Positions 20,320 to 51,110 of a stretch of 64,000 nt of DNA are shown here, one piece after another. Each line of letters begins with the position of its first letter. Positions within the stretch are counted from its first letter, which is position 1. Source of the DNA: Sipunculus nudus (lineage: Eukaryota > Annelida > Sipuncula > Golfingiida > Sipunculidae); the NCBI GenBank assembly GCA_026874595.1, contig CM049317.1:50914618-50978617 (forward strand). Reading direction: 5' to 3'. Made by a program: the position numbers and the translations under genes. Under the pieces are notes generated by a model. It searched no databases and was not told the DNA's origin. It saw nothing but the letters and a program-made list of their open reading frames with translations.

Positions 20320-20327
20320 GGTTAACT

Positions 20328-26974: not shown

Positions 26975-27108
26975 TGGGACCGTAAAGGTCCTTAATTTCG
27001 GCTCCGCGATCGCCAGTTCCTCCAACTGGCAGCCATACTAAAGGATGGACGGGAAGACGGGCGGACAAGGCGATCACTATAGGGCTCCGATTTTAAGCGG
27101 CGCCCTAA
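26975..27108 (+). mobile_element. Third copy of the hairpin-terminated element end, without tandem core
   Basis: Holds GGACGGGAAGACGGGCGGAC, then AAGGCGATCACTATAG, then a terminal hairpin (27080-27089 with 27098-27107, nine of ten pairs) including the final CTAA. The order matches the ends at 31905 and 51110, but the stem sequence differs completely (GGGCTCCG against CTCAGCTGACT). Two more hairpins lie just upstream: GGACC/GGTCC (26977-26981, 26987-26991) and GCCAGTT/AACTGGC (27012-27018, 27024-27030). Confidence 0.6.
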
Positions 27109-27109
27109 T

Positions 27110-30100
27110 GAGCAATAGTATTACAAATCGTGTCTTAGTTATGTAGGTATAATTTGTACACTGAAGCACTGTAAGATTTCAGATTAATTCAAGTTACACC
27201 CCCGACACACAAACACTACAATCTTAATGAGAAATTTACTTTACATATACGTTCTGCATTGAGGTATGGTAGTACATACGTATATTGGCGTATCGGTGAA
27301 ATATGTTTGATGTTTGCAAGAGCGTATTTTCTTTTTGTTCAAAACGTTATGTCCCAAAAATTATTGCCCATTAAATGGAATATGAAATATTTAGAAATAC
27401 TAGATAAATCCTCCATGGTATATTGATGTTATAATACTAGTATTTTTGATATTATTAACAAAGTAACATTCATCTGTATTTCATATCTATCCTGTAAACC
27501 TACAGTGAATCCTGCATCACAGTCAACAGATGATGGTTAACAGCAGTGATATGGAAGCAGTAAATTACAAAAGTGAAGCGGGTGACTCTTCCTACCCTTT
27601 TCTGCTCCGCCAGATACTAAAGGAATGGTGCTATTTTGAATTCTCCGTGGTAATTTGATAAATCACCAAAGATAACGTGACCCTAAAACAAACACTTTCA
27701 TCTTTACTTTCCTTAGAACTGAATAGATTAGGGTAAGATAACCACATTTGAAACAGACAGAGAAGCAATGATATTTTCATTATCTCAAGATCACAGATCT
27801 TCTCCAGTGATTTCCAATTAAATGTTTTGCTAAGAATATCACAACGTGATCATCTTCATGTTATTTACGCAACGATCTCCGATAGAATATAAAGGCGCGT
27901 GTTCTATATGGAAGCCAAAACAATAAGAAAAAAATGCAAATTACGCGACTTTTGATCGCCCACTAATCATTATGTACATAATGTACAAAGTTGAAAACGG
28001 AGGCCCAGCAAGCGATATGGTTAATAGGGCACATTAAATCCCCACATTCTTCATTTGCATCGCAAGTATAAAAGAAGTTTTGTTTTTCCTTGCCTGACAT
28101 AACGAGAATCTACCAAAAAGTGGTCATTAACCGAACTGAGTGACGCACTCGGGCGCAATCGAAGCACTAACTGGTCCTCCAGTCCATTGGTCAGACAAAA
28201 CTTATCAAGAGGCTCTTTAGAAAAAGAGCGCGACGGACGGACAGGTGGACGAATGCTTGCTATGGTATTGTAGACCGACAATCCGGGCAAATGGGCACAG
28301 AAGTTAGGAGCCAGACCTTTGCTAACTGAAAATCTAATTAAAAAAAGTGCTTGTTCATGTGATTTATGTTTCATCTGTGTTCATAAAATGGTTTATGTAA
28401 TTGTTGTGTTGAAACATGCTTCTTTTGTTATTCGCAAGACGTCAGCTCTGTTTTTATTTGCTTGATCAGGTTCTGAAAATCACGTTTATGTGGGCATTAT
28501 TCAGTACAACTACAAGTTTTTTACTGGCTCAGAGTAAAACAGAAGTGCCAATATTATTATTTCTATAGGATATTTCTTTTTTCGAATGGAGGCTAAGATC
28601 CGGGTAGGGGAATTAAATACCTGAATTTTTCATTTTGGATCGTTAACAACACATATCGGGTTCAATCATTTTGGACTCTAGCAGTTTGTCTCATTGCATC
28701 TTTTTGGGACAATAAATAAAAGGAAAAAATTCTACAATAATCGTCCACGGATGATTATTATAACAAGGAGGTACATGAATTCACTAGCTTCAACTTTCGG
28801 CTTAGAAATTTGTCTAATACCTGATCTGAAACATTTCTGGTGCACAGTAAATGCTACAACATACCTAACTGCAGAGTTCGATGCACAGGTTGTTGAGAAT
28901 TGTGTCCTGCAATGTGGTGTGGTCGTGTAGTGTTAATCATGGAACGGTATATTTGTCGGTATTCTATTTAAACCGGAAGCTCGCGTCCCCCGGGTGACAC
29001 GTGCCGGCCAGCCTGGCAACCCTAAAGCACGTGCTTACTGCGTGTTCGCCGCGTGGCGAAGCAGACGGCGCTGTTGGGTACGGAAAAAAGTCCAGCTGTT
29101 ATTAGAAAATCAGAATGCTTTGATTTCTCTGGCGCCATCTTCTTATTTCCTTTGTCTGCAGATCAGGCGAACACATGCGTAAACCATTATAATACCTAAG
29201 GTGGATTTTCACTTTTAATCCAGACGGCTGAGTCACACTGGGGTCAATACCTTTGTACCAGATAAATGAGAAACAAGAAAAGGTATTCTGAACTAATTTA
29301 AGACTTTTTTTTCAGATCTTTTTATGGACTATTTCAGTAAACCCTGCACATATGACGCACACACATGGGTGTTGTCTCATACCACAAATCTTCTGAAAAA
29401 TCCGTTATTTATTTGGCGTAAAATCAAGCAATCGAACGAACTAAGACAATACTGTATATTACCAGCTTCCTAACGGAAGCATAAATACGTTCACAGGGGA
29501 AGGGCGTAACTTAGTTGCACTACATAGCGCAAAATCACCCAGTTCGAAGCTCATCCTTGTCTTACAGGCAAAATATTGAAATCTCATTATTTATTTATTA
29601 CAAGATTCTGCGGAGTAGCCTGTACCAGAGGAACACTTCTGTTGTATGCAGGGCCCTGTTCCAGGTATAAAATACAAGAAATTTATGATAAACATGACAA
29701 TAAAATTAAAATAAAAGTTACCATACAAATGTAAATTACATACTAAGACTGTTAAACTTATACAAAATGGCAGATTATTATTTCAAATCATTGGTTATCA
29801 TGTAAATTTTGATACTAAGAGGGATAAGATAGCAAAAAGCAAACGGGTTTGCTAGGTAAAATAACTTGTAGAGTACATGAAGCTAAGATACCGTTGCAAG
29901 ACTGGTGAAGTATAATTACGATACTTTTTCTTAAACACTGCAAATTCAGGAACACTTGATGTTTAGGGGAAGGATACAGTTAGTGTTATTGGTTGGGGGT
30001 ATTGAATATTGGTGCGTGTCTTTAGTCATAGCGAACGTATCAAACAAACACGAAATGGCTAAACCAGGTATTCTTTTCATGCATTACAACAGACAAAATG

Positions 30101-30200
30101 TAAAAATATCGCTTTTTTAATTGATTTTTAAGAAGGTTTTTTCCCCAGTGCAGCTATCTGCAGCTATACTTGTTATAACATCAAGACAGGATTATTCCTG
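27110..30200. other. No gene supported
   Basis: Intergenic. At 28230-28295, GACGGACGGACAGGTGGACG, then GCTATGG and ATTGT/ACAAT arms could be a very degenerate further end of the hairpin family. GC-rich 28980-29090 contains TTCGCC/GGCGAA inverted words. ORFs have no signature. Confidence 0.45.
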
Positions 30201-30219
30201 GTCCCGTTTTTTTAAATAA

Positions 30220-30310
30220 CTAGGGGTGTGCTATTTTATTGATGTATCGGTATACTGCGATACGTTGATTCGGATATTACGTATTGCGATAGTTAACAAA
30301 TATCGAATTG
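30220..30310 (+). mobile_element. hAT-like element end
   Basis: CTAGGGGTGTGCTATTTTA then GTATCGGTATACTGCGATAC and ACGTATTGCGATAGTT: a TAGGGGTGTG end with GCGATA subterminal repeats. A possible opposite end lies near 32230-32265 (CGTATTGCGATACGC, then ATAGGGG). If so, the tandem-core element at 30.5-31.9 kb is nested inside it. Confidence 0.45.
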
Positions 30311-30499
30311 TTTAAATATTTCTTTTTAAACGTGCCTAAAACAGGTTTAAAAAAAAACAAGTGACCCATGGGTCCTGACGCTCAGCTTCCGAAGAGATTC
30401 GAAAAAGGAAATTTTATCATCTGAATGGTAGTATATACCCATTCAACTGAAGGATCAAACAGATTAACCAACAGGCCAAGAATGTGTCTGTATTTATAT

Positions 30500-31905
30500 A
30501 TCTCAAAAATAGAGAAAAAATGCGTAAAAAATACAGGTGGCTCCACCAGTCTGCAAAAACACATGGTCAATATCCATGCAAAGAATCATGGTGATCTCTG
30601 CATTAGTTGTTCAGATACTTCAGCTTATGTATCAAATTTTCCATTATTCTGAGGGATACTTCCGAGTCCAATAGCTTGAAGGATATCGGTAACAGAGACC
30701 TAATTTCAGGTTTCCACAGACACTTTTCATGGGTCTCCTTGCATTACAAGAATGTAGAATCTAGGTCCAGTTGTTACGATTTTTACCCTGTTGACAGATA
30801 ACAACATCTTTAAAGGTCTCAAAAAAGAGAAAAAAAATTGCAAAAATTTGAAAAAAAATAGAGGTGGCGCACCCAGTCTGCAGAAACTGATGGAACACCT
30901 CATGATCAATATGTATGCCAAAAATCATGAGCATCAGTGTTGTAGTTATTGAGATACTGCAGTTTTTGTATCAAATTTTCCATTATTCATGGGGGTATTT
31001 TGGAGCCATACAACTTAAAGGATATAGGTAACAGAGAACTGATTTCAGGTTTCCATGGAAACTTTCCATGGGTCTCCCTGTGTGTCAAGAATGAAGATTC
31101 TTGGTCCAGTTGTTATGATTTGTGCCCTGTCAACAGATGTTCATATCTTTAAAGGTCTCAAAATTGAGAAAAAAATCGTAAAAACACCCGAACAAATACA
31201 GATGGTGCCACCAGTCTGCAGAAACTGATGAAACACTCAATGGTCAGTATCCATGCAAACAATTATGATGATCTCTGCATTAGTTGTTCAGATACTTCAG
31301 CTTTTGTATCAAATTTTCCATTATTCTGAGCTGTACTTTGGAGTGCCATAGCTCATAGGATATGGGTAACAGAGACCTAATTTCAAGTTTCCATGGAGAC
31401 TTTTCATGGGTCATGTGTCAAGAATGAAGATTCTTGGTCCAGTCTTTACGATTTGTGACCTGTTAAAAGATGTTCTATTTTTAAAGGTCTCAAAAATATA
31501 GAAAAAAATTGTAAAAAATCGAAAAATACAGATGGCGCCACCAGTCTGCAGGAACTGATGGAACATCTAATGATCAATATATATGCCAAAAATCATGACC
31601 ATCATATCAGTCTAGTAGTTAATGAGATATTGAAGTTTTTGTATGATTTTTTTTTACTTTTCTGGGGGGGGGGGTACTTTGGGGCCCCATAGCTCAAAGG
31701 ATATGGGTAACAGAGACCTAATTTCTGGTTTCCAAGGAGATTTTTCACGGAACTCTCAGAATGCCAAGCAACAAGGTTCTAGGTCCAGCGGTTACGATTT
31801 GTGCCTTGTTAACGGACAGACGGCCGGATGGCCGGATGGCCGGACGGACAACGGACAAAGAGTGATCGCTATAGCTCAGATGACTTACAGTCAGCTGAGC
31901 TAAAA
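30500..31905 (+). mobile_element. Tandem-core element with hairpin 3' terminus (Helentron/HINE- or pearl-like), about 335-bp units
   Basis: Four imperfect direct repeats. Anchors are CAGTCTGCA at 30547, 30874, 31212 and 31542 (spacings 327, 338, 330) and AACAGAGA at 30691, 31030, 31368 and 31709 (339, 338, 341). Each unit contains poly-A-rich 'AAAATAGAGAAAAAA', 'CCACCAGTCTGCAGAAACTG', 'ACCTAATTTCAGGTTTCCA' and 'GTTACGATTTGTGCCCTGTT'. The last unit runs into a GGCCGGAT minisatellite (31820-31850), the block GTGATCGCTATAG and a 13-bp stem hairpin (31873-31885 with 31889-31901, loop TAC, one mismatch), then TAA. Short ORFs inside are shadows of the repeat. No transposase or Rep-helicase coding is visible, so the copy is non-autonomous. 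Family name is inferred from architecture. Confidence 0.75.
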
Positions 31906-32289
31906 ATTGTTTCTTTTGCAAATTCAGATATCAGCATGGGCTGCGATTAATGACAGGCTTTAAGTAAAAGCCGTCACCGTGTCTTCAGTCGTTCAGTAGG
32001 AAATGTTATACCTGATTGGCCTGATATACCATAGACCAAAGGCCCGTCATAAGAAATTCGCCTGTCTGCACGAAAATTTATTCCCATACATAAAAAAAGA
32101 ACTGAACACGGTCATAATAATTGATCATTCATAATCATTCTCTCGTAGCATCATATGATTACTGCATTAAAATCAACATTATACAAGGACTACATACCCA
32201 TTGCCTTTAAATTCAATACAATAAAAATATTGAAATCCGTATTGCGATACGCTACCACATATAGGGGATTACAGGCGATTATCCAAGGG

Positions 32290-32452
32290 TTAACCAGGCT
32301 CGGTGGGAACCTCCTAACTCGTTTGTTAGGTACAATTCATTAAGTGTACAGAGCGCTTACCCTGGATTAGGGCCGACCATGAAAAAATAACACCGCCTCG
32401 GCTGAGATGCGAACTCACGACGTCCTAGACCTGAGCCCTCTACCCCTAGACA
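32290..32452 (-). mobile_element. tRNA-derived SINE, copy 1
   Basis: On the minus strand the element starts with a tRNA-like head: GGGGTAGAGGGCTCAGG (box A region) and GAGTTCGCATCTC (box B, 32404-32416). A body follows with CATGGTCGGCCCTAATCC and GGTAAGCGCTCTG. The body is shared with the copies at 33485 and 60435, which fixes the family. Transcription would be by RNA polymerase III. No LINE-like tail was recognised. Confidence 0.75.
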
Positions 32453-33484
32453 ACATTAAAACATGATCACATTGAAAGCCTTAGGTATTTTACATACATA
32501 TCACATAATTGTCTGTAGAAACATTTCGTTGAGTGACTCGGTGGAGAAAATGAAAGAACACCGCTGCAAAGGTGACTAGTTGACTTTTTCATTTTTTTAT
32601 TTGTACCATTGTGGCCTCGACTTAACATCCTCCCGTTATATGCAACCAGATATCTGAATCGGCATATGTGGTAGCTGGTATATATAAATCAATATGAGGT
32701 CTTTCATAGGTTATCTCTTGGACTCATTTATTCTACTTATTCAGCTCTGCACGGTGCAAGATGACGGTAATAACATCGCGGCTGTTCATTATTTGCTTTA
32801 ATTAAGCAAAAACAGGACTTATATATTACAGAATTTATGCAGGGGATCCAAGAGACACTATGAGCAGAGAGAATATACAGACTCCTGAGTCTTAAATTAA
32901 TGTCTTAAACCGGGTGGTTGTCGTAAATGTATACCTAAAACGATACTTAATCATGGCATTTTCTGAGCTGCTACGCGTTTCATGACCTGTAAAACCAATT
33001 TTATCTGAACATAGCAAAGCTGCACGCTACGATGCGTCTTTCAAGAATACTAAGTCTTCTTTGATGTTAAGTAGCGTCTGAGAGTGGATGACGCCATAAA
33101 GACAGAGCCGGGTTACACTATGAAACTATCTTGTCAACTGGAAAGTAAAACCACGGCTCATGTCATTATCATCGACTTGGATACATGCATTCGGGCTTAA
33201 AGAAAACCAAAATGTTCCTGAATGATATGCTTTAAATAACTATTAATAATCCCTCTTAACATAAACTTAATTTAGTCTCTCTTTTTTATTGTTGGAGTTT
33301 TACGCCTCTATTGTTTTAACGCTAGCTCAGATAAGTATATGTACATTTGCAGAATTCAGGTTCGCACTACGTGACGGGGCGTTTTCACACGCTGCCTCTC
33401 ATGTTATATCCTGATGTAAACCAGGGCAGGTGACTACTGAATCTTGGGCCAATGGGTTGGTAATCGTCCCAATAGTTGGTTCAT

Positions 33485-33651
33485 CTCAGCAAGGATCCCC
33501 AAAAGGTGCCTTCCGAATAAGCTTGCAGAACGCTTACCCTCGGAATTGCGGGGGGGGGATGGGTTGGTCGACCATGAAAAATGTGAGATTCAAGAAAACG
33601 ATCTCCCGGCTTAAGTCCTGTGCTTTACCCCTGAGCCACAGAAGCCGGTAA
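33485..33651 (-). mobile_element. tRNA-derived SINE, copy 2
   Basis: Minus strand. Best-preserved box A of the three copies: TGGCTCAGGGGTAAAGC (around 33622-33638), with a weak box B (TCTTGAATCTC, near 33585-33598). The body CATGGTCGACC is followed by a GC-poor spacer with a C-run, then AGGGTAAGCGTTCTG. An ORF running through it is an artefact of the SINE. Confidence 0.75.
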
Positions 33652-34547
33652 TGTTAGTCAGTTCGGCGCTTAGGGCACACTAAAATTAATTTATTAAATG
33701 TTTCTATGTACCCGAGGTACAGTATATGGGATTTCGCTAGCTTGCCAAGAAATATGCAAATATATACAAAACATGACCTTCAGTTCTTGAAATTGTATTA
33801 ATGCTCTTGAACTTGAATGTTACTGGCCAAGAAAGAATGCAAACATGGTTCGGATCATTAAAATACTTTAAAAACAATAATACCTTTTAAGCCATTGACC
33901 ATATTTACATTATATATAGTAGTCAAACCAAACAGGAACTATTGTGCAGTAAATAGAAAAAGTGCATGAAAGGTTGAAAGCCTTGTGGAACATTAAATTA
34001 ATAATTTATGTTCCGAGACATTAAATACTGTTTAACCCTTCTCATTAACACGTAGATAGAAGTAATATTGCTGAATATTGATGTGTCTGTATCCCATAAA
34101 GTATCATCTTTAAAACGGATAGTTTTGTACATTGTAAAACTTTTGCCAAATGGTACACATACATTTTAAATTGTCTGGTATTATAAACTTTAATATTTAC
34201 TGAAAATAAATTGTTAAATAGAAAAAGTGGAAGACTTATGTTAAACTTATACTGCTTATATTAAATATAAATAATTGGTTACTCAAGAATATTCAATAAT
34301 CGAAATAATACATCCGATTGTGTTCTATCAGGTGCTGAGATGAGATATTCTTACAGCTCTTTTAAGTTTAATTAACATAGCCAGATTTTACTTTTAACAG
34401 ATTCCCAAACTTCAATACAATGGGTTAGGTATGGAAATATGAAACTAAAATATAATGAAACCATGCATGGAATTGATAACACTTCACGGGATTTGCACAA
34501 GTCTCCTAATCCTCCTAAACATTAAATTTAGACATTTTTCTTAAAGG

Positions 34548-34549
<2 letters not shown>

Positions 34550-34602
<53 letters not shown>
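34550..34602. repeat. (TA)n(TG)n compound microsatellite
   Basis: About 30 bp TA then about 20 bp TG. A (HT)n(YI)n ORF on the minus strand is its translation. Confidence 0.97.
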
Positions 34603-34917
34603 AAGAGGAGTAAAAGACTGATACTTAATATAAATCATAAAAGATCGTGTATGTTTGAAGACTACATTTATAAAGAATAACCAATCTTTCAAATTATCTA
34701 CTCGTATTGAAAAATAATCTAAACTCGGTCCATGTTTCTTTTGGTCCACTTCTAATTAAAATGATGCGCAAATGTTATCTGATATAATTGATTTGAATAT
34801 TATGTTAGTTACATTGTGTAAACTTTTAATATGGTGAGATAGCAAAAATGGAACCCTCGCGAAACAATGAGAACACGGAACTCGCTAAATATTAATTACG
34901 CGTTATGAAGCAGACCA

Positions 34918-34919
<2 letters not shown>

Positions 34920-34984
<65 letters not shown>
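34920..34984. repeat. (TA)n(GA)n compound microsatellite
   Basis: TA repeats changing abruptly to GA repeats. Confidence 0.97.
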
Positions 34985-34988
<4 letters not shown>

Positions 34989-36034
34989 TGACACACACGA
35001 ATCCAACAAAACTCCTGAAATTTAAGAACAACAGGTGTTTTGAAGAACCATAATTTTAGAGTGAAAAAAATTACTTAATGTGACAATATGATAGTTAAGG
35101 GCAGATAATGCCTAAAGCAACCCTAGATTTATGGCTGTCAGGATTAGAAAGAACTATCAGTGTATACCAACATATACCGCAAGATATTATTTCAGGTAAA
35201 TCAATTGGAAGCTTGATAGAGCGACTAGCACAAAGAAAACACTTTTGTTCCATCTACAAATGCCCAAGGCGAAAGACATCAGAGAGATCCCATTAGACGA
35301 GCTTTGCAACGTTATCTTTTGAGTAACACCGAGATCAAGTCGGAACTGTTTATACATAAGTACCCTCTTAAGCGTGTCTACTTCTCACCCCGGCGGAGTA
35401 TTGCTTAACTGACATACCTTAGGTGCAGCTACTTGTATCCGTAACTTATAGGTCTTTCTATAATCCTTTATCCAGGACCAAAGAATTTGTTAACTCCAGT
35501 TTATCGGCGGGTTCTTGGTTCCACTTACTTCTGTCAGTAATGGATAAAAGGCACGGCGAACACCTGAGGGTATAGTTTGGCAGTGATATAGAAGCCAGAT
35601 AGTTGAGTATCCAACAGACTCCGTATTCCAGGAAGCAATAATAATAACAAACAAGAGCAGGAGCGGATTTTGTGATGATATCTTGGGAGTGACTCAATCC
35701 CTCATTTGTTTATCCAATGCTCATCACTCTGGCTGGCTGTTTAATTATATACAGTCAGTCCCACGCTTTATGTCCACGGACCGTTTCGATAATATTTTCA
35801 TAGATTCCATACTATGTATCCAAATGTAGCCGTCAGCTCACTTAATATACAGTCTATTCATATCAATTTGCGTAGAATCCCCAGTCTTTTATTGCTAAAT
35901 GTTTAATGGTCGCTCTATAGCATATATACCAGCAACGTCCTAGAAGTCACGGAAATTATTTTAACAAAGCACGTGACGTACAGATACTTATTATATAAAT
36001 ACTGTCAGCACGATCTAAACACAGAGCCTCGATA

Positions 36035-36069
36035 GTTCATCATCGGTGGTGATTTGTCAGATGATGAAC
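36035..36069. repeat. 10-bp perfect inverted repeat, 15-base loop
   Basis: GTTCATCATC (36035-36044) and GATGATGAAC (36060-36069). It lies about 40 bp downstream of a TATATAAAT and a CACGTG word; a promoter here is possible but unsupported. Confidence 0.6.
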
Positions 36070-36816
36070 TCTGGATCCAACAGCGCAAGTCGTACTAGGT
36101 CGTGTTTTCCAGGTTTGCTCGCATTAGCTTTGGAGGGCTGCGGGTAACAGCCACCCATTGGCCAGGCAAATGGCACTCGAGTTCCCTGAAAATCCAGTCT
36201 CTGGGCAGTCAGGCCGCGAATTTTGTGCAATGCTAACGTCTGCTGCAGCGGTTTTAGAATGTAGCAGACTGCCTATGGATTGGCATTAGACTGGAGGGCT
36301 CATTTGTCTATGACATGGTGATTGAGGTTGTTTGCCTTCACACTGGACGCTAGCACTGAAACAATCCACAGCTTGCCTTCCCATGCACACACTATATAAA
36401 AGAAATTCTTCCCAAACCCTATTTGTTAAAGATATTTTTGTGGAACTTTTGAATACTCTTAAAGTGCTCTAATAGCGTCTTCATATGGCCTCAAATGCCA
36501 TCTTATCAAATGAATGTTTTAACAATGAGGTCTATAATTGGTGCTCATTTGAAGAATTCTCCTGGCGGTCATGGCCATCTGCCCGTTCCGTTTACATGTC
36601 TTCATGTATCTTTCATAGTATTATAAAAAGTGTCTGTTGATCTCTATTAGAGTTACACTTAGTGTTTCAGCAAAAAAAAAAAAAAATGAGAAATCCAATT
36701 TTACAGTTTTATATTAAACGAACGACTGTTCCCACGGTCTCTCGCTCATTCTATTCATTTTATAATGAAAACATTATAATTTACCTAAAATGTTTCAATG
36801 GTTATGAATAAACATT

Positions 36817-36820
<4 letters not shown>

Positions 36821-36866
<46 letters not shown>

Positions 36867-36993
36867 AGTATATATATATATATAAATATATATATAATAT
36901 ATATATAAATATATATATAATATATATATAATAAATATATATATATATCTATATATGTATATAGATATGTATATGATGCATATGATGTGTATG

Positions 36994-37046
<53 letters not shown>
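36821..37046. repeat. Long AT microsatellite complex
   Basis: About 225 bp of TA repeats broken by TAAATA, a GATGCATATGATGTG duplication (36973-37000) and ATAGATATG. The longest simple repeat in the window. Confidence 0.97.
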
Positions 37047-37048
<2 letters not shown>

Positions 37049-38811
37049 CGTGTTAGTGCAAATGGAACATAATAACGCCTAATCTACCCGGAATTTCTAT
37101 ATAATACAAACAATTAAAATCATTCATATGTATATATATTGACAAACCTAGCCACACCAAGGTACTGAAATATTAAATCTGTTGTCCTGAGGATTCACTG
37201 TGCTTTACAGTCAGAGTGCAAGGAATCTCCTCCAGATGTCGCAGAGGCGAGGTCGTGCTAGCGTTTACACGTTCACCAATGCCTGATTTAAGATAGTCAG
37301 GCTGCTTGCTCTATAACCCAACCCATCGCCTCATTCGCTGCTCCCTTATCCGGTCAATCTGCTATTTCAGCCTTGTCAGAATTCTTATGTCTATAATATT
37401 AGTGGAGACAAACAATAGCTTGAATATCAACATTTCCTCACGAGGCAAAATCCATGTCTTTCTACAGAGAATCTTTTTGCCTCCGCCAGAAGGGTATGCA
37501 TTCATCCCAATTCGTGTGTGTTTGTTAACTCACACGATTATAAGTGGAAGCTAATGCATTTTTAGGGCTTTTCGGGAATGGGCAAATGAAGAAAAGATTA
37601 GATTTTGGTTTGGATTGGACACATAGCCCGGATTCAGAAACGTCATCAAGGAATGTATTAATGTACAATCACTTATGCACGAAAGAATCTATACTATGTT
37701 CCAAATACGTGAATGCAAACATGGTTTGGGAGCATCTCACAATAAGGAGCTCTAAGATGGTGGAGGCTTGCATTCCTTAACATGCAGACTTCCATTTTAA
37801 CTCTTATGGTGACATTTCAAATACAGGATAGGACGTTACTTTGCGGTTTAGGTGTTGGATTACCTTGTCTAATCACATCAGGGACTCAAAATATGCGGGA
37901 TGGAAAATCCTGAAAAGGGTTATACGCCTTAATATGTCTTCCCAATCGGTCAGGTCTTCCAGATTCTTCCGAGCACAAAGCATATTATCTTGAAACGCTG
38001 AAATCGTTTAACGATGACATTATTATCTATGGTTACCTTTATCGTATTTCAATAGAAACTGTGATGGAAATTTATCATTTACAATATTAACATTTCACAC
38101 AAATAGTAAGCATATATACACTTATCATTGTATTACAGAATAGATATATATGACATTTAATAACGCAGATTAAAATATATAATTATATTATTAAATCTTT
38201 CTGATTTGAAACATTTAACATTTTAATTAAAAACTGCAGCTTGCTAACTTGCTATTTTATTATGCATCTAATAAAGGCCTAGCATTTGGAAATCAATTAT
38301 ATCACGAATTCTTCAAAACAATTTAGGTCCCTATTTTATGTTAAACTCTCCAGTTGTACATGCTATAACGTTATTTTGATTGATTGTTTCCCTCACTCAC
38401 TTATGATCTTAAAGGTTTGATAAGGTTAAGTCTTTTATCTTAATTCATAACCCCTGGTGATCATGTGAGTAATTTACGTTAGGGGAAGAACTATTGATTT
38501 CCTGGCATCAGACAGCTCCGGATGTTCAAATATTAGCACTACATCTTCGAGGGGGGGGGGGGGGGGGTTCATTTTCATTAGGAAGGAAGACAGATTAGAA
38601 CCCTGGCTTATAGATGGTGACAATGTCCGTGAAATGTGAGTGAACGTATCCTTTTCGCTCATGACAGACGATTTATTATTGCGACTCCAGAGATTTGGTT
38701 TCGTAGGGAGAAAGTCTACAAAGTCTTACCAGTAAAAAATGAACGAAAACAGTGCACTTAGTGCCTCTCGCTGAATAAATGATGTACACAGTGTTATATG
38801 TCATATTAACC

Positions 38812-38914
38812 GTAGGGCTTGGTATTGCCTACTATTTTCGTATTGCAATATTTTTCGATAAGTATTGCGATATTTTCATTGTATTTAATGTATATTAAAT
38901 GAGCGTGTTTTCTC

Positions 38915-38962
<48 letters not shown>

Positions 38963-39172: not shown

Positions 39173-39506
39173 ATTAATGAGTACTTAGTACCTATCGCTG
39201 TACAACCGATCATTCTCTAGTCATATATTCGGCCTGTCCTTGACGTTTTGCGAAAGTATGTGATAACAGTTCTGACGTATTATATATTGCTAAATGCCAG
39301 TGTAATCGAGGGGTTAACAATTTTTATTAGAATTGGTATCAAATGCTTCATGTATTTAATGTATACATTCGGTTCAACGTTTTGTTCATACGTTTTTTTA
39401 GCTCTGAGCTTACCTGACTTTATCATCGAACACCTATAATTCTAATATATACTATAAGTACCTACTATATATGAAACATATAGACTAAACACTTTACATA
39501 ATAATC

Positions 39507-39507
<1 letters not shown>

Positions 39508-39538
<31 letters not shown>

Positions 39539-39540
39539 GC
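39508..39540. repeat. (AT)n microsatellite
   Basis: AT run with one TTT interruption; AT-rich sequence continues to 39720. Confidence 0.9.
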
Positions 39541-39719
39541 ATATATACTAAATAAATAATCTAAATATATACTCTGTATAGTAATAATGTATATATAAAA
39601 TATATTCTGAATATATACTACATAACTTGATTTAAGAATTACTATATATATACAATATATATTAAAGTGAATTTATATGTGTTTATATACATTTATTCAT
39701 ATTCTACGTAGTTAACAAA

Positions 39720-41560
39720 GACCCGAGTTAGTATGAAAAGGTACAACATGCCATCAATTGTCAGACTTTACGCACATGATAGTTATACAATGATAGGAGT
39801 AAAGCGGGCCAAGGTGGAACCAGAGTAAATCAGTGGATGTCTTTCCAGCTAGCGGGAAATACAACAAAACACCCACTTCAAAAAGTCTCTGTGTGCAGGA
39901 AACGTTTGCTTTGGTGTATATGCCATATGGGTAAAAGTATAGCAGACAACAGCCACCCCGTCATAGGAGACAGCCATCCAAGAATACCTTGTTAATGCTT
40001 TGAAATGATTCTTCTCTGTCAAAGAAGACCGTTCCGGTATATTTTATGAGTCTGGGTGCAAAGCACTGCAGGCCAATTCCATTTTCACTCCATCTATCAA
40101 TATTAGACGGACCTGATAGTTCTTGCTCCCGAATATTCAAGTTTTTTTTGAGGGACCTCATCAGGTACAAGGCATGTTCAATTTACTTGAAAAATAGCGT
40201 CTTTTCCTTAAACAAAAGTGGTACCTGTCAAAATATTATGCTGAAATCGTTGGCTTACTCCTGTACGTTTTCTCTAAAAAAAAGTGTAGCGCGAGATAGC
40301 CCTACCCGGGCTTTAGTATTTGTATTTACTAATAAAATGCTTACAATAAAACGCGATTCCATGTACTGATAGACATAACTCAGTGCCAGCTCTTATCTCT
40401 AAAGCCCTGTAAAGTCCGTATGGTGAATCCCTTATATTAGCATACAAGGGCGTCACAAGGCTCTTTGGGGACTTGAAGATTCTCAAGCATTTACAAATCG
40501 GGCCGTCACGCCTCATGTGACTTTCATCGTTACTATGAGAACGCCAACACCGTTCCCATACGCAACAGACAGCTCGACCCGCTTGGTAACATTCGCAATG
40601 AAATCAAGCCCTCAGGTAGTCCATACATGGACCTTCGTATCATATGATAAATCTCTGATGTACGAACATTACGGTCCATGGGCCAAACATAAGTGCATTG
40701 TAGACACTATCGCAACAATTTTGTAACAAGTCCAGTTAAATCCCCTCTGCTGAGATGATAGGAGCAGCTGACAGCATTTGTGTGAACCCGTGTATTGGTT
40801 CCCTAAGACAAGCCACTCTCAAGTTGTCAACATGCGAGTCGTCGTGATCGTTTTAGCAAGTGGGCACATGTATTACATTTTGACTGCGTTCATACCATAT
40901 ACACCTGAATTTCTTACGCTGACTGGCTGAGCCAGGGTTTGATAGGCCTTCATTTTGTTTAAACAGACCCGATTTGAAAATCGATGGTCTGATAAACGTT
41001 AACACTGAAGTTGAGGGTTATAGTATTTGTGGTGATCGTCTCGCGGAACTCAACATAGGTAGGCGAGGGCCTAAATATTTAAATAGATTAAATGGGGATA
41101 TTAGTGGCCAACTGGAAGCTCGCAATAGGCGATGACTGAATGAACCATGTTAGTTATGAGATTCTTGGAAAGACCACCAATTACTGCTGGAAAAGACCTT
41201 AGTTCCTCGAGGCGATGATGTGTGGCGCTGACCGTCCCATAAACAGTGGGGTTTACCAGTCGATGAAATAGTCGGCCAGAGAACCTAAGTTTATTTTAGT
41301 TAAATAATTTGCCGCGAGTTGGCAGTTCCTGTTCTAAGCTTTGTGACACAGCAAAGTAAGTTTGATGGCTCTGTTAGTAGGAGGAATGTTTTGACCATTG
41401 CATCGACTGGGGCAGTATAAGCGCGAGATCATTGCGCCAACATAAACCGGCTTTCCGTTTTCTTTTCAGGCGTACCGGTATTTCACAACCGTGTACGTTC
41501 ATGTTCAGACTACCCCTTCTTTGTTGCCTGTCGCGCATGCGCAAAATTGAAATAAAAATT
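39720..41560. other. No gene supported
   Basis: Less AT-rich than its surroundings. The two overlapping frames at 40046-40369 and 39961-40170 are on opposite strands, with no domain recognised. Confidence 0.5.
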
Positions 41561-41571
41561 CTGAGACCATA

Positions 41572-41675
41572 TGATGGGAAAGTTTTTCAGGCAAACTGTT
41601 GCATAAAGCAATACTGAAATGATATTGTGAAAGAATACGCATAATATAATATTGCTCCTGGTTGTGTCCTTTTAA
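41572..41675 (-). mobile_element. Truncated copy C of the TTAA MITE
   Basis: On the minus strand, TTAAAAGGACACAACCAGG then AGCAATATTATATTATGCG and GCTTTATGCAACAGTTTGCC match the left end of copy A (TTAAAGGGACATAATCAGG). Homology fades after about 100 bp, so this is a solo end. Confidence 0.65.
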
Positions 41676-42652
41676 AAAAATCAGCCGGTGTCCTGTTTGG
41701 CACACTCTCCTGAAAGAGGATTAAAAAGTTCAAAGTGTCGTCCTGGTCTGTTGGTAAACAGATAGATGGTTGATACCTTTGTTAAGAAGAGCCTGACCAG
41801 TTGGCTCAACCTCCTTCCTCAGGCGGTAAAGATGATGATTAAATTAATCATGCGAAAAGATAGATATGTTCTTTCTGAATTCCACCACTTTGCTGTTTAA
41901 TCCATCACCTGAAAACAAAAACTTATCTACATTTCCGCACAGATGTTAATGCTTACAAATATAATTCTACAAACAGATAATACTTCTGATTACATTCCGA
42001 TATGATCAGGATTTTTTAAAGGTAGAAGATATTCAGTACAAAACCTTTGCATTTGGTGCAAAACAATATTTCCCTCGAAATTATAAGCATAATTTATTAC
42101 ATATACAGGAGAGTACAAGTGAATATGCATGCGCCTTTTGAATGAACCATCGCACCGCCACGCTATTAAAAGAGAGACAGCTATTAAGGCAAAATGCGAT
42201 TGTAATATATTGGAAAAGTTTGCAATAATCCACATATTATTTTTATTATTGGGGAATGTTACTAATTGTGGTCATGTTGTCATTCATTCATGAATTTGAG
42301 ATGACACTTTTCCCATTTAGAAAGATGTCAGCGCAATATACGTGAAAAAAAATCATTGAGCATTATCTGAAAAGGTTATTCAATTAAATTTCTTCATATG
42401 TTAGCTACGATCTTTATTAACAGTAGGAAATTATCAAACGGTATCGAATTAACAATATCTAAAACCGTTATGAGATAAACCTCATCACTTGTAACGGTGT
42501 AAATTAAAAACAAGTTTTTTTTGTTGCTGTTACAAAAGCGATGAGAGCAAACACTGGAATTGTCACCGTGATGAAATTTATCGTGATGGGGTGCCCTACA
42601 CAAATTACGATTTCTTATTTAAGTGAACGAAAGAGCCAAGGGCTAAACATTT

Positions 42653-43147
42653 GATTTAAGGAGCCTATTCTTTCACAGATCAGTTCACTTTTGCTTTATA
42701 CAAAAGCTTCCAGGCAAAATCATTCCAGCACACGGTCTCAGTGCCTCTCTTGTATGTGTAACACCTTGTTATGGGTTTCATGTTAGTAAACAAATTCTTC
42801 GTGTGTCCGTTTACACTAACACTGAGTAACAAGGCCGCGTGAGCGGAGGTCCTATTCTGCGCATTCCAAACAAAGAGTAGTCAAAACTAGTACATACATG
42901 GACCTTCATGCCCTCTGATATTTTTCTTGTGGATGGACATTAAGGTCCATCGGCCGAATGTAAATACATATACACGTGCTGTGTGGACGACTGTGATCGA
43001 GCCCTATCCACTGATGTAACACTCGTGTACAGGAGTGAGCCAACGGTTTCAAGGCAATAAATTTGCAGGTACCACTTTATTACAAAGAGAAGACGTTATT
43101 TTTCGTGTTAATTCAACATGGTTTATAGGTGATTAGGCCCTTTTAAA
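42653..43147 (+). mobile_element. TTAA-flanked MITE, copy B
   Basis: Same orientation as copy A, and alignable through most of its length: GCTTTATACAAAAGCTTCC, AACAAGGCCGCGTGAGCGGA, GACTGTGATCGAGCCCTATC, TTTATAGGTGATTAGGCCC. The left end has a small deletion after TTAAGGAGC. The right inverted repeat is well kept. Middle part is diverged, so the insertion is old. Confidence 0.8.
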
Positions 43148-43280
43148 CATACTGTCAAAGCTATTTTCCATCGATCGATGCTTGAGGTAAAATATCCCAC
43201 TCTTTGAGGTTTATAAGTTTTTCTCTTGCCTCGCGACCTTTAATACATCATTATCAGATTATTTTCTCTCTACCTTTTCT

Positions 43281-43495
43281 CTTTAAAAAAATATTATTTC
43301 GGGCTTCCTTTACAAAATAAAAGTCCATGTCTTTTTGCAAAAAAACATTCCTTAATTGTGCCCTTTAAATATAATAACCCTTGTGTCATTTACGAAATAA
43401 TATTCCGTTTGTCCTTTACAAAATAAAATTCCTTGCGTCCTTTACAAATAATTCCCTGTACCCTTCACAAAATAATATTACGTATGTCCTTTACG
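43281..43495 (+). repeat. 26-bp tandem repeat, about 8 units
   Basis: The unit TTTACAAAATAATATTCC plus GT.TGTCC repeats with period 26 (one unit of 23). The clearest units run from 43381 to 43490. Confidence 0.75.
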
Positions 43496-44466
43496 GCCAC
43501 CCTGGTGGCTGGCATTTGCCACTGACAAGTTAGGATGAAGTTCACTGCTGTGGTTAAAGTGTCTATATATCTCAGGTCGTGGTAACGCTCTTCCGTAAGG
43601 GACGTAAGACTGCGCCCGTTTATTAAACCGGAGAAAAAATTCGATGCTCACTAATTTATAATATGACGTTGTCGCCAGATGGCGCTAATGCTATTCTTCA
43701 TATGTTAATTCACATTGACCTGTGTCTTAATTGGCCAGGGTAACAGGCCTCCGCTCTCCCGTGCTAATTCTTTACATGAGTCAATGCAAAATTATTATTT
43801 CTCATTAACCTATGAAAAACGAAATTAATAATGCTGAAATTAATTCGCACGGTCGATCAGGTGTGAATCACAGTTGGTAAGTATTTTTTATAAAGTAATT
43901 GACATTTAATGTAGAACGCAAAAGCATGTGTACACAAAGAAAAAGCTGTCATCGACCAATATATTTGGCAGATGGGCCGAACCTTTTCTTTGATACCGGC
44001 GGGGTGGGAAGAACTAGTTGTATTCAGATTAATATATGTAAGCGCTCTGATGTTAATGTGGAGCCGGTTTCGGTTACCCACACATCTTCGGATGACAGCC
44101 GACACGATGTACTGGCTACCAGAGAAACAGATGAATACGGCTGATCGCTCCGAGAAAAATGTCGACGAGACGCTGTCAAATTTCTGTCTTTTTATCAGAC
44201 GTTCGGATTGTTCACTGTCAAATTATGAAACTGTATGTGCAATAAAGATTCCAACGTGAACTCACCGACTAGTCATAAAATGTATTGTCGTATTTATAAC
44301 ATCGTGCCTAATTAAACACAGCAGTGCCCAGTGCATGGCTGATTGTACGGGCTACTCTTGTAATAACTGTAATACATTGATTTATAGTTCCATTAAAGTA
44401 CAAAATATGCATCATTTCAGTAAATGATTGAGGCTGACAGTTGTTACTTTATATGATAATGATATT

Positions 44467-44586
44467 GCTTCTTCTGCTACTGCTGCTGCTACTACTACTA
44501 CTACCACTACTACTATACTACTACAAGTATAAGTAGTACTTTTTATTACAATAATAATAATAATAATATTTATAATAATAATAACG
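44467..44586. repeat. Trinucleotide repeats (CTT/CTG/CTA, then AAT)
   Basis: CTTCTTCTG, CTGCTGCTG, (CTA)n, and after a gap (AAT)n. A valine-rich minus-strand ORF (44412-44624) is its translation. Confidence 0.93.
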
Positions 44587-44599
44587 GTGGTAATAGTAA

Positions 44600-47150
44600 C
44601 ATTGATATTGATGATAAAGACCAACCCATCAAGGCTACCTCTATTACCACCGATATTACAAATACTACTGGTAATAATGAAAAATATAATAATAATTTTA
44701 CTTAAAATTAAATTTAAATTATCATTAACATTATTAATAATTATACAGAATCAGTTCGTCCAAAAGGCACTAGGTATCTAGAAAAGAATATTGCCCAAAC
44801 AAGACACCAATACATATGTGATATGCTTCCATTTAATTGCATTTAATCCATCACTTGTGTCGACATCTCACGGTAGAATTTAGTATTACTGAGGCACGTA
44901 GGTAATGGGGAGTTCAGTATAAGTATATAGACATAAAGTGCATTTGAAATTCTTAGGCTAGTCATAAAAACCTATGCGGTCAGGAACCATATGGCCTCCC
45001 ACAGTTTGGTGGGGAACAATTTGGCAGTCTTTTTTTGTATATACGTCTGTGTGTACACGGGAACTGCTGTAAAAAATGAATGTTAAGTGGGTCTTAGCCA
45101 AGGATTTTAGAGAAAGAAGAGAACTTGGAGGGAATGTACGTCCGAACAAAAGTCCCAGTGCGATGCTCTCTTCGGCCGTCTGAGCTGTTTTCTGTCACTG
45201 TTGAACTGAATGATTTAATCAGAATTAACATATAGCGGGTTGTTTCTACTCAAAACCTCTTATATTAATTTTTGTCTATATATTGAGCTTCCTTTTTTAA
45301 CGTAATAATTCTGGCAACTTGCTTCTGTCTGGATATGAGCTGGCATCTATCACAAGAAGAACCAGACACGTACTTAAATTATAATTTTATTGACATCGTC
45401 CTTGATATCAAACGATAAACAATCAGTATCGTTTATTTTTCTTCACTTTACCTTTTAATTTCTAACCTTCATTATGTATAAGGTAATTATTATTAAATTC
45501 ACTATGTATAATCCAGGGGAGATGTCATAAGGAGGAGACGGCGGTGGTTCAGGGCTTAGCTATATGTGGGATCGCTGCTTCTATAGAATGAAATGAGGTA
45601 ACATTGGTGCGTTTCCACTTCACTCCCATACAGTGATAAAACTGTAACATATTTGGAAAGGGACATATTTGAAAATACGCTCCCTGCTTTTTTTTTAAAA
45701 GAATGTGAGGTTTCAAAAATGGTAAGTTTGTTGGAGGTAGATTACTGGCAGAACTAAAAATCTGCATTCTAATGAATGCAAGCCTCCGCCATTCACTTAT
45801 AAGGCAAATATTGGCAGGTCCATTACTGCATAAGTGACTCTACATTTGTGAATATTCTATGATGACGCTCCTGGATCGGATCCTCACTAAAATCTAATTC
45901 ATTTTCCATTGGCACATTCCAGAAATGGCCTGACAATTTGCTGAGATTCCGATCATGACTGCGTGAGTTATATTGTGAACAAACACACATACACACACAA
46001 ACACAAAAACGGATATGAATACACAACCTCTTGGTGGAGCCAAATATAAACACTCCCCATATAGTTATGCAAGTAATGCGGCCAGAATTATATGTTTTGC
46101 CAGAATAATTGTAAGTGTATCAGTCAAATTAACCAAAAGCACACTGTATTTCCATAAGAATATTAAATTAAGTAAAAGGGCATTGTAATGTTACTGTAAT
46201 TATATTATAGTGTAAGAAGATTATAATCATATTACAGTTTGAATTTAAGAAGTTCTATAAAAATTATCTGGCGCAAGTCTAAGCAAACAACGCCGTGGTC
46301 TAAAGAAGCAACAAGTAATTTAGTTTAAAGCAAATTAACCAATATAATGCAAATGGCTATTAAATTTATAAAACATTTAGTGATTTGGAACCAACTGAAA
46401 GACACTGAATGGTCGAGCGGAACGAGCGGAAGATAATTCCGAATCTTTAGGCATAAATCATGATTTGATGGAAGGTGATGTTTATCTAGTTATGTGCATC
46501 CGTAAAACAACGGTTGTTGTTTTAAAAAGCTAACCTGTCAGATTATAATAAGTGGATAAGTGACGGATTTCTTCTCGGGCAAAACAACGCTGGTCTTTAT
46601 GAAGTTTCCGACTGGCCTAGCGCGGGTAATTCAATTACCCTTGGTGAAGACAAAAACCAGCCATTAGGATCTAGTGACTCGAATAATCCGGCGTAGCGAT
46701 TTCGGATTACGCCGGGTTCAGATTACCCCCGGTTCAGATTACCAGGGGTGTAATCTTTCCCCCTACAATTTCAGATCGCCTACGCAAAACAGTTGTCTAT
46801 ATATATTTATTCGTGATATCTATTGTTTTTGTATCTATTTTCCCCCAAAATCTTGAGTTATGTCATTAAAATAATATCATTATAAATATTTTTTTGTTCC
46901 TGGATTTTAGCTTCAAATCTTTATATTAGTTAATTAATAAATCATAAGTTAAAGGCATCATAATGTATCATTCAGCTACAATATTTAATGTAAATTAATA
47001 ATGTATCATTTAGCTATATTTTTTATCAATATTAACCCCGGGCGTTAATATGAAATCTATTTCAGATAACCGGAGGGGGGGGGTAACCTTAAACGGGGAC
47101 AGTTTAAAGTCTTTACACCGGACTAGCCATCCATATTCAACTCAGAGCGG
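44600..47150. other. No gene; short repeats only
   Basis: GGGTAATT/AATTACCC palindrome at 46624-46640, and CGGTTCAGATTAC repeats at 46704-46742. Two ATAATGTATCATT words (46958, 47000) hint at another eroded repeat. No accepted ORF. Confidence 0.5.
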
Positions 47151-47154
47151 GATT

Positions 47155-47376
47155 ACAAGACACACGGAGTAGATGAAGCGTGGGCGCAGGGAGGCGGGCG
47201 TCCCCTCTTTTACGCCAAAATTAATTTTGCGCATTGTGCTATTTTCTTCCATGTACATGCTAGAAATACTGATAAAGTTTACTAGCACATGGATGTACAC
47301 TTTTTAACCTGTGCCGGGAGGCTGAGCTCTCCCCCCCCCCCACCCCTTTCTAAGAATCTGTATCCGCCCCTGGTTT
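47155..47376 (-). mobile_element. Probable hAT-like MITE end (CAGGGGCGGATACAG) with G-run
   Basis: On the minus strand the end reads CAGGGGCGGATACAGATTC, then a G-run (47331-47341 as C on plus). CAGGGGCGGAT is a common hAT-type terminus in invertebrate genomes (recalled, not searched). The other end is not clear; GGGCGCAGGGAGGCGGGCG near 47185 is a candidate. Confidence 0.4.
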
Positions 47377-47399
47377 AGCAGGAACAATATAGATAACTA

Positions 47400-50130
47400 A
47401 TGTCTTTGTCAGGCTGCCAAAATTAACTGAACCTATTTGAGACGTTATCCCACCAAGAAAATTATATTTCATTCTACTTCCGTGACTAATTCACCTTATT
47501 ATGGCTCGTCGACTGCATTTACAGCTCTGACAATCTAGTTATGTGAAATACGATTCAGCTGGGAGATTTGTAGTCAAGTGCCGCTACATATAATCGAAAT
47601 AAGAAGTCCGTTGTATTTAAAGTTGTTAGGTTTTAAGTTAAATTTATTCATTGTTTTGTCGGATGAGTTTCACCGTCTCGTGTACAAAGCTAAATTGAAA
47701 TATTTATAACCCTGTATCTGCATCTAATTATGAAGTTTTGTCATTTCAAAAATCAATATAAAGAACAATGTTTTATAATTCATTGAAACCAATGTCAAAT
47801 AAAAATCTCTTTTACCGACCAAACAGCTTATTGATATTCATAACAAAGAAACTCCCACTAGTCCACATGTCCTTTTCTCAGATAAGCGATGACGACATGA
47901 ACAGTCCAATCAGAGTTCGATCTAACATGAGCCGCTAGGGTTTTCTCGACCGGCCAGAGCCTTGAATGGCGGGGAAGACCGATTTGATTTCCGTCCGTGT
48001 CAGCTGCTGATTTTACGCATTTATAAGTGACTGAAACGAGTTGATTCTGTGTCAGTCAGAGGTAATTCTGTGTCATTTAGGCCAGTTCTATGTGCATGCA
48101 AAAGCTAGGTTGGTGCAATTCTGTCGTTAGGTCGCAAATAAATACTTGATCCTGCTGGTCGCTGAGGGCCATCTGGCAGTAATTTCATACCTTAATTTAC
48201 TCTCTTTAACTATTACAGTGGTATCTATTCAATTAATAAACAGTTGGGTTTGTCCTAGACCATCGATACCTACTTCCGCTATGATTTAAACTTCCAAAGT
48301 CGGCACACGAATCGTTGGTGGGCTCTTCTAGGACAAGTTTGTTTTCTTTTGTTTAATTCCTATAAAGCTGCATAATTAAATTTTTAATATTCCCCAATAA
48401 GATGCTCATATATCTTTTGTGCTTTAAGGTCCCCCACGCACATCACGCTTTTTCATGAGGCACCTTTGGGATTTTCTTGGATTTTGAGCTCACTTGCCTG
48501 TTAAGCCCATGGTCAGAGCGCATGTCCTGTCCAAAGAGCGTTTTTGTGCACTTGCGGGTCCACTTTAATCCCGATCGGTCTCCATATCCATTATAACGTC
48601 TCCAAAGGAAGTTTACTCTCTCGAAAGGAAGTAAAGATTTTTTAACCGAAATTTTAATTGATTGAGCTCTCAATGCGAAGGCTTTTCAGTTTGGTCAACA
48701 CTGGGGACTGAGACCAGTCACGTGGCCACCGTTTGAAAAACCTTTTTATGGGTTGCAAGTATGTTGATTTCTATACATTCACACGAATATTTCCACGATA
48801 TCCATTGTTTTAAAACAGGTCATTTCATGTGTTTCTTTTTACGTTTGTTCAAAAAGCCCTTTGACTTAAATACCATTCCTGGGGGGGGGAGGGGGGGGGG
48901 GGGTTCACACATATATTTTTTAGGTCCGCTGTCTGTAAAACATGTAAAACAAGATAACATATTCCCAGTACAACCTAAAAAATTTTAGGGATTCTATTAA
49001 CAAACTATATTCTGTAATCCCTAACATTCTAAATTATGTAGTCGGAGCCCACAAACCTCCACCAGAATCTGCTTTAATATAAGTAATGTGTTCACGTTTA
49101 TCCGTTTCATGTATGAACTCCGTCAAGCTTCACTTACACATGTTTACCTTGCGAATTGAGGAACAAATACATACGAATGGGCGGCTTCCACACGGGTATA
49201 TAAGAGAAATTATATTTTGATGATTATGATTACCCCCAAACCTTAATGGGCTTCTGATTACCCTAACCTTGAACAAATGTTAATCAAAAACCGTACTTAA
49301 CTTTTTTGTGTTAATTTGCTTAGAGGGAAAGCAACGAACCAAGATTTAAGCTGTTTCCATGCCACAGACTTGCACCGAAAGGAATTAACCTACCTTTTAT
49401 CTGGGAGAGTTACCAGTTTTACTATTATACTTGCTATTTCTATGACAATCTGCAAAGCTCAGGACAAGCTCATACAATACATTTGGAACATACTTCTTAT
49501 AATACATGTCTTTTCACTTTGGCAGCTGTTCGATTTCGGGTGCAGGAGTCTTCAACGCCTTACATGTGTCTGTTAACATGCCTCAACTGACAACTAAAAA
49601 CATCGCTTTTCGTGATTTCCTCATTGCTTAATTTTTTTACAAAACATCTTTCATAAACTTTCACCTGGCTATAGTCATATAATTTCTTCAAATTATTTTA
49701 GCAGTAGATGGCTTCTATAAACAACCATTATATCTATTATTTCGTCATCACTTCAGCAATGATGATGTCATACCCATGTTGTTTATCTCACTAAATATTC
49801 CTACACCCTATACATAGCTAAAGTCTTTTTCCAATACATATTTGTATATGTAATTTCTTGAATAGCACAATTTGCCATTATTTGCTAATATTATAAGGGG
49901 AGTTGTAAATAAACCACATTACATCAAATGGCCCATAGGCCATGACGCTCAGCTGAATATAACTGGTTGCTCATGTTTTTTATCAATGATATATATCGTA
50001 TGTGAGAATAGCCTATGGCTAATGTTATTATGTTATAAAACTGACAATAAAAATATGTTTTTTTTATATTCTGTACTTTGGCATTTATTATAATAATTTA
50101 GTGACTTATAACTAAGAATTAAGTATATTA
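47400..50130. other. No gene supported
   Basis: Intergenic. Contains the G-run at 48881-48903. The frame at 49316-49576 has a hydrophobic middle but no start context or family signature. Confidence 0.5.
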
Positions 50131-50139
50131 AGTAATTAA

Positions 50140-51110
50140 TTTCAGGACTCAAGTAGACTTTCCAAGCCCCCCCCCCCTGTATTTTACAAAGGAACGTTCA
50201 GAGGAAAATGGATAATACCATGTGTAACCTGTCTGGTGCTCAAAATCCCGTTTCTGGTCCTTAGCTCACAGAATACAGGTCACCGTGACCTTATTTCATG
50301 TTTCAAAGGAGATTTTCCAAAGATCTCCCTGGATGTTATGTTACGAGAGTCCAGGCCTAATGGATACAATGTGCGCCCTGTCTGACTGCTAAAAAACATG
50401 CTTCTAGACAATAGCTTGCAGAATATAGGCCACATTACCTAATATTAAATGTCAAAGAAGATTTGCCTAGGACCAATACCTAATACATACAGTTTTTACC
50501 CATCTGATATTCAAGGTGCTCAAATCATGCTTTTGGCCTGTAACTTGCAGGTTTCCAATGGGATTTGCCAAGATCTCTCTGGATGTTGTGTTAGAAGATT
50601 ATAGGGCTTAATAATACAATATGTGCCCTATCTGATTGTATTTGACATGTATAATAAGAATTAAGAAACCTAATTACAGGATTCAAATGAGACTTGTTCA
50701 GGAGCTCCCTGGTTTTACAGAAGAAGGTTCCAAGGAAAAAAATAGATACAATTTGTATCCTGTCTGTCTTGGTGTCAGATTCATATTTTTGGCTCATAGC
50801 TCACATAGTATAGCATACTGGGTCACCATGACCTAATTTCAGGTTTCAAAAGAGATTTGCCTGGAACCTTCCTGGATGTTGTGGCAGAAGATTCCCCGAC
50901 TGACTGTCTGGGTGCTGCAAATCATGTTATCGGTCCATCAGTTGCAGAATACAGATTCCCAAGACCTAATTTCAGGTATCCATGGGGATTTGCCCAGGAC
51001 CTTCATAGGGTTTCTAGGTCTAACGGTTACGATTTGTGCCGGAGAAACGAATGGACGACGGGCAAAGGGTAATCGCTTTAGCTTAGCTGACTAAAAGTCA
51101 GCTGAGCTAA
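50140..51110 (+). mobile_element. Tandem-core element with the same hairpin 3' terminus, about 130-160-bp units
   Basis: About six degenerate repeats of 130-160 bp. Each carries variants of ACCTAATTTCAGG, GGAGATTTGCC, CTCCCTGGATGTTGTG and TACAATGTGCGCCCTGTCTG; unit anchors fall near 50300, 50440, 50545, 50673, 50832 and 50965. The end (51020-51110) matches the end of the element at 31905: GGTTACGATTTGTGCC, a GGACGACGGGCAAAGGG block, then a hairpin (51080-51092 with 51096-51108, loop AAA, 13 bp with one G-T wobble) and AAA. The core differs in period from the 30.5-kb copy but shares word-level motifs with it. No coding capacity. Confidence 0.75.

Follow-up and report, generated by a model that had tools for sequence, protein, structure and literature searches.

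Within a window of 64,000 nucleotides of the Sipunculus nudus genome (contig CM049317.1), hairpins bordered by CTAA occur at 27.1, 31.9 and 51.1 kb, raising the question of which kind of mobile element they delimit, in which direction it is to be read, and which enzyme might move it. We consider it very probable that each hairpin marks the 5' end of a non-autonomous Helitron2/Helentron-type element on the minus strand (HINEs of the bivalve pearl/Cg_HINE kind; elements A, B and C), with a Helentron Rep-helicase as the likely mobiliser of the B/C type.

Orientation and anatomy of the three elements

All three hairpins with CTAA were present where an earlier note had placed them. That note had ascribed to the ends at 27108, 31905 and 51110 a common succession of GGAC-rich stretch, GATC.CT.TAG block, hairpin and CTAA; hairpins and CTAA were indeed found at each, but the block at 51.1 kb reads AATCGCTTTAG, and the GGAC stretch is weak at this end. 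The stem irregularities it listed were recovered, with 9 of 10 pairs formed at 27.1 kb, 13 of 14 at 31.9 kb (a single C.T mismatch on the minus strand), and a G.T pair at 51.1 kb which exists on the plus strand only, its minus-strand counterpart being a mismatched C.A. As single-stranded DNA of the minus strand, all three ends folded more stably than dinucleotide shuffles, with z values of –2.73, –3.75 and –5.17 at 27.1, 31.9 and 51.1 kb, respectively.

A second set of signals is located at the left side of each element as seen on the plus strand, where a short hairpin adjoins the terminal repeat in inverted form (Table 1). The coordinates given earlier leave out these far termini of B (30358–30386) and C (49925–49956), while their starting point, 26975, falls at the 3' hairpin of element A. 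On the minus strand, the order of features is T-rich flank, TTAG, ATIR within a hairpin, CTATAGYGATC-like block, GTCC microsatellite, repeats (in B and C), subterminal 3' ATIR, 3' hairpin, and end; the GGAC stretch is the GTCC microsatellite of the left flank. The hairpin noticed earlier is the 5' hairpin, and the orientation had been read backwards. Because the elements lie on the minus strand and start here, CTAA is their 5' TTAG as seen from the opposite strand and not, as had been proposed, the CTRR of a 3' terminus; the actual 3' ends read CACTTG in B and CATTTG in C. The corrected orientation is relevant to any search model that is to be derived from these termini.

Table 1. Coordinates of elements A, B and C and of their parts in the window
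Feature	Position	Strand	Remarks
Element A, minimal HINE, about 143 bp	26965..27107 (3' limit approximate)	–	both termini, without central repeats; halves each match separate genomic copies
A 5' hairpin and 5' ATIR	27080..27107	–	TAGGGCGCCG cttaaaat CGGAGCCCTA
A 3' ATIR	26994..27007	–	GCGGAGCCGAAATT
A 3' hairpin	26977..26991	–	GGACC tttac GGTCC
Element B, HINE, 1545 bp	30358..31902	–	
B 5' hairpin and 5' ATIR	31872..31902	–	14-bp stem, C.T mismatch at pair 9, TTTT before
B conserved block and GTCC microsatellite	31814..31871	–	block TAGCGATCAC
B central tandem repeats	30563..31813	–	period 339, 3.7 copies
B 3' ATIR	30376..30386	–	GCTGAGCGTCA
B 3' hairpin	30363..30374	–	palindrome GACCCATGGGTC; element end ..TCACTTG at 30358
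Element C, HINE, 1185 bp	49925..51109	–	
C 5' hairpin and 5' ATIR	51079..51109	–	C.A mismatch at pair 6
C central diverged repeats	50283..51004	–	spacing 133–231; 46-nt segment common to B's repeats
C 3' ATIR	49943..49956	–	TCAGCTGAGCGTCA
C 3' hairpin	49930..49941	–	GGCCTATGGGCC

Several traits of HINEs were recognised in A, B and C, namely a 5' ATIR with a complementary inverted repeat (forming the 5' hairpin), a second, subterminal repeat near the 3' end with a palindrome behind it, and the absence of any frame of at least 150 aa, consistent with the lack of coding capacity of such elements. Paired ATIRs, one at either end, were found in A, B and C as well as in another family, A'. The longest end-to-end inverted matches in the window copies are about 7–11 bp with at most one mismatch, as compared to the HINE criterion of a subTIR of at least 11 bp that is identical within the family. 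Folded alone, the 3' hairpins of A and B (z values of –0.47 and –0.16) were no better than shuffles, and that of C gave a z value of –2.34.

Elsewhere in the window, an uninterrupted frame of 415 aa (19117–20361, minus strand) matches rhodopsin-type GPCRs (PF00001, E 2.8e-25), and a 48-bp tandem repeat (24658–24984, plus strand) lies within an open frame of 190 aa without a Pfam match.

Genomic copies, stem variation and insertion sites

Searching the genome (1.43 Gb, 153 contigs) with the pattern TTTTTAG-N22..28-CTATAGYGATCRC, which allows any stem, returned 3,298 + 3,339 = 6,637 places, and the reversed pattern 0 + 0. A second pattern, for stems not starting with TAGC, occurred at 533 + 564 = 1,097 places that partly overlap with the first set (control, 1 + 1). 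The recurrence of the 5' pattern is not due to chance. The best 40 of 2,360 candidates scored with a B query matched at 99–100%; among the best 40 of 218 scored with an A query, each match except the window copy spans either the 5' or the 3' half of A. A pattern scan of IMG/VR for related ends gave 0 matches. Some loci are compound. In L044, a second 5' end at 2202 (reverse strand) belongs to a B-type element nested in the T-run of another B-type element's central repeat; L007 contains three 3' hairpin units in tandem near 1430–1560; and C.A-type 5' ends recurring on the same strand at intervals of about 497 bp (G000:C3:28445697, 28446194 and 28446690) suggest a tandem array of short elements.

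The earlier note had taken pairing maintained while the stem sequence changes as a sign of selection on structure. B and C have the left arm in common, so that the comparison essentially involves two independent stem sequences rather than three. When the first ten and last ten bases are compared, the arms pair at 9 of 10 positions if both come from the same group, be it the A type (A, A') or B/C, versus 4–6 of 10 when arms of the two groups are crossed; pairing thus outlives sequence change between the groups. Within the B family, however, the arms vary independently, which the note itself had named as an observation that would speak against its claim: among 37 variants read by hand from the matches listed for the 5' pattern (two of which share one hairpin and differ in the block), two-sided changes did not restore a single pair, as expected of decaying non-coding copies. 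Since B copies decay without compensation, the argument for a selected structure rests on the between-group comparison and on one A'-type copy (C1:413121), in which a double change from C-G to T-A, recognised by eye, keeps pair 9.

The stems are frequently imperfect. Among 28 A' ends, pair 7 is C.T in 23, C.A in three, and T.T and G.T in one each, and a Watson-Crick pair in none; this set excludes a false match (L027, the 29th row) as well as L080, L087 and L088, which were not detected among 16 further A'-type ends. In the B family, the C.T form is the commonest stem among the matches listed for the 5' pattern, and in four variants read by hand a bulged T replaces the mismatch. Genome-wide, the bulged-T form of the B stem occurs at 636 places, the C.A form at 254, and the perfect form at 94 (92 distinct, two being counted on both strands), indicating that perfect B stems are outnumbered by imperfect ones, while ruling out a strict rule that a perfect stem never occurs. 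Helentron Rep and the TnpA proteins of IS200/IS605 and TnpA-REP systems are HUH nucleases. By analogy with TnpA, which reads stem irregularities, a mid-stem mismatch (C.T, C.A) or bulged T might be read by the Helentron Rep and the 5' hairpin be kept imperfect by selection, but we regard this as rather doubtful, because descent alone explains much of the imperfection and the 94 perfect stems likewise count against it. The likeness to IS200/IS605 and TnpA-REP, whose nucleases recognise folded single strands, is meant as an analogy and not as a claim of homology. In the pertinent part of one account of the E. coli REP sequences, a bulge in the stem is needed, and the members of a second REP group are perfect palindromes (PMC8266576).

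With respect to the target, TTTT precedes 31 of the 32 B-type 5' ends detected in the fetched loci, with sequences diverging beyond it, a count that is biased because the query itself contained TTTT. T precedes TAGGG in 26 of the 28 detected A' ends, for which the query ended one base out. To obtain empty sites, the flanks of 19 candidate rows with both ends (six B-type, thirteen A'-type) were joined; readable empty sites resulted for L050 and L019 only, the L017 rows being left aside as uninterpretable. For L050, a B copy of 990 bp, the junction is spanned by 15 BLAST places, 14 of which are distinct (L007 and L014 overlap). These paralogous sites, with 76–81% identity, show a contiguous T-run in 13 of the 14 distinct places and none in the fourteenth. 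The filled site CCATTTT/element/TTGCA compares with an empty site such as CCATTTTTGCA, indicating insertion without target duplication beyond one T which the T-run leaves ambiguous. Empty sites lacking a duplication, as anticipated in the earlier note for a rolling-circle element, are hence represented by this one well-aligned B copy; L019 (A') shows no duplication either, at poorer alignment. For the flanks of the B copy in the window, no empty site was found among the fetched loci. The flank and the HINE 3' end of L050 both recur about 1.9 kb away within that locus, which points to a local duplication; both of its own BLAST places are included in the above count.

A candidate Rep-helicase partner

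The Rep profile PF14214 gave 143 matches among the best 150 scored in the genome. For eight Rep-helicase (RepHel) copies, the 3' side was read at the predicted place. The copy at C17:35630192, which has an uninterrupted frame of 2342 aa, carries TGTCAGCTGAGCATCATGACCCATGGGTCACTTG followed by TTTTT. Two copies picked by their match to the same part of the Rep profile (58–191), C5:42912065 and C10:71600289, carry an end of the TGTCAGCTGAGCATCATGACCCATGGGTCACTTG type at the distance predicted from C17, with one change in it in C10; measured from where the Rep match begins, GCTGAGC lies 5146 bp (C17), 5140 bp (C5) and 5148 bp (C10) downstream. In all three, the sequence is homologous up to the boundary TGTCAGCTGAGCATCATGACCCATGGGTCACTTG/TTT, and the flanks diverge directly after it. 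The ends of HINEs B and C are identical to this RepHel 3' end in 27–32 of 34 nucleotides. In the other five of the eight 3' regions, neither a B nor an A 3' end occurred within the 2.4–2.8 kb read. In the C17 frame, the last 593 aa gave matches to PIF1 helicase (PDB 7otj, E 1.4e-17; Pfam PIF1 at its cut-off) and, beyond PIF1, to Exo_endo_phos with an E value of 8e-5 and 22.9 bits, which is under the Pfam cut-off of 24.5. The C10 copy (L101, reverse strand, 594 and 639) has two such 3' ends in tandem, the diverged one lying 45 bp beyond the other.

Based on the common 3' terminus, the Rep-helicase family is likely to be the Helentron partner of the B/C-type elements. An autonomous Rep/helicase copy with the same end, as called for in the earlier note, is thus matched at the 3' side in three of eight loci, whereas some 4.4 kb of sequence upstream of the C17 frame, which contain other repeats, yielded no 5' end of the partner; nor did comparison by eye of HINE 5' ends with RepHel places, among the matches listed, reveal one in the right place and orientation. 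No partner was found for families A and A'. A repeat starting near TTGTATCCGCCAAAACAG adjoins or sits inside L019, L023 (about 1252), L014 and L098, one of these places being on the 5' side of the C17 RepHel copy. Since the RepHel 3' end is common to HINEs whose 5' ends have many near-identical copies (99–100% in the best 40 of 2,360), the question of the partner is directly testable.

HINE ends are very common and nest in repeats, so that the RepHel genes might owe this 3' sequence to an old HINE insertion instead of having a terminus in common with the HINEs. We consider this quite unlikely, given that three copies have the end at 5140–5148 bp from Rep, with homologous sequence before and unrelated sequence directly after it, and that no HINE 5' end was detected in the C17 stretch carrying that end (L097, 893 bp before it). 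Still less probable are canonical-like Helitron 3' termini on the plus strand, consisting of a hairpin and CTRR as the earlier note had read them: although a hairpin does come before CTAA on that strand, the other end of each element, to the left, has the subterminal ATIR and second hairpin, the conserved edge is TTTT/TAG on the minus strand, and three RepHel genes end, in the same sense, with the sequence found at the other terminus. MITEs derived from a cut-and-paste TIR transposon, suggested by inverted repeats at both ends and by the first description of pearl elements as MITEs (PMC7492417), were rejected as highly improbable, considering that the repeats are asymmetric (terminal at the 5' end, subterminal at the 3' end), that the empty sites of one copy lack a TSD beyond one ambiguous T, and that a RepHel gene has the 3' end in common.

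If the RepHel family is the partner, a Helentron Rep-helicase would mobilise B/C-type elements by recognising their folded single-stranded ends. The nick would fall in the T-run and be followed by rolling-circle copying, and start and stop would be marked by the 5' ATIR, pairing either within its hairpin or with the ATIR of the 3' end.

Comparison with known systems

The layout of the elements, their insertion into T-runs, and RepHel genes with a matching 3' end support the assignment to rolling-circle transposons of the Helentron/HINE type, which the earlier note had suggested. They do not conform to canonical Helitrons (Helitron1, with 5'-TC, CTRR-3' and insertion at A/T), starting with TTAG after T, ending with CACTTG (B) or CATTTG (C), and having a T-run as target. 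Helitron2 elements (Bao and Jurka 2013; FoHeli) are described as having a terminal 5' ATIR in a hairpin and a subterminal 3' ATIR upstream of a 3' hairpin, with insertion after TTTT in some and a compensatory change between two relatives (PMC3627910, PMC5148889). A, B and C have the same order of ATIRs and hairpins; the CTATAGYGATC block by the 5' hairpin, however, is conserved here and is not part of the Helitron2 descriptions in the portions of these two papers drawn upon for the comparison. Helentrons are characterised by subTIRs, a 3' stem loop, a TT target, a RepHel protein with endonuclease, and HINE derivatives with common ends (Thomas et al. 2014, PMC4067079, in the part relevant here). 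The present elements resemble them in subTIRs, 3' stem loop and T target; their candidate RepHel partner, which has a matching 3' end, departs from the description in that its endonuclease match is below the curated cut-off and no 5' end of it was seen.

In layout and order, the elements also correspond to the bivalve Cg_HINE/Pearl elements (CvA, DTC84, MgE) as these are described. In these, the left flank comprises a subTIR, a complementary inverted repeat and a microsatellite, which is GTCY-like in several elements; central satellite-like repeats are followed by a right flank with subTIR and palindrome, and insertion occurs into oligo-T without TSD (PMC7492417). According to the corresponding part of that study, Cg_HINEs could not be related to any autonomous Helentron, and a second oyster study, as far as its pertinent section goes, came upon no autonomous copy and concluded that there is no activity (PMC7992393), so that both leave open what moves the abundant HINE/Helitron-like elements of bivalves. 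The kind of element itself is known; what is new here is the frequent imperfection of the stem and the link to Rep-helicase. Whereas Cg_HINE is without an assigned autonomous relative (PMC7492417, same part), in the Sipunculus nudus genome a RepHel gene was identified whose 3' end matches.
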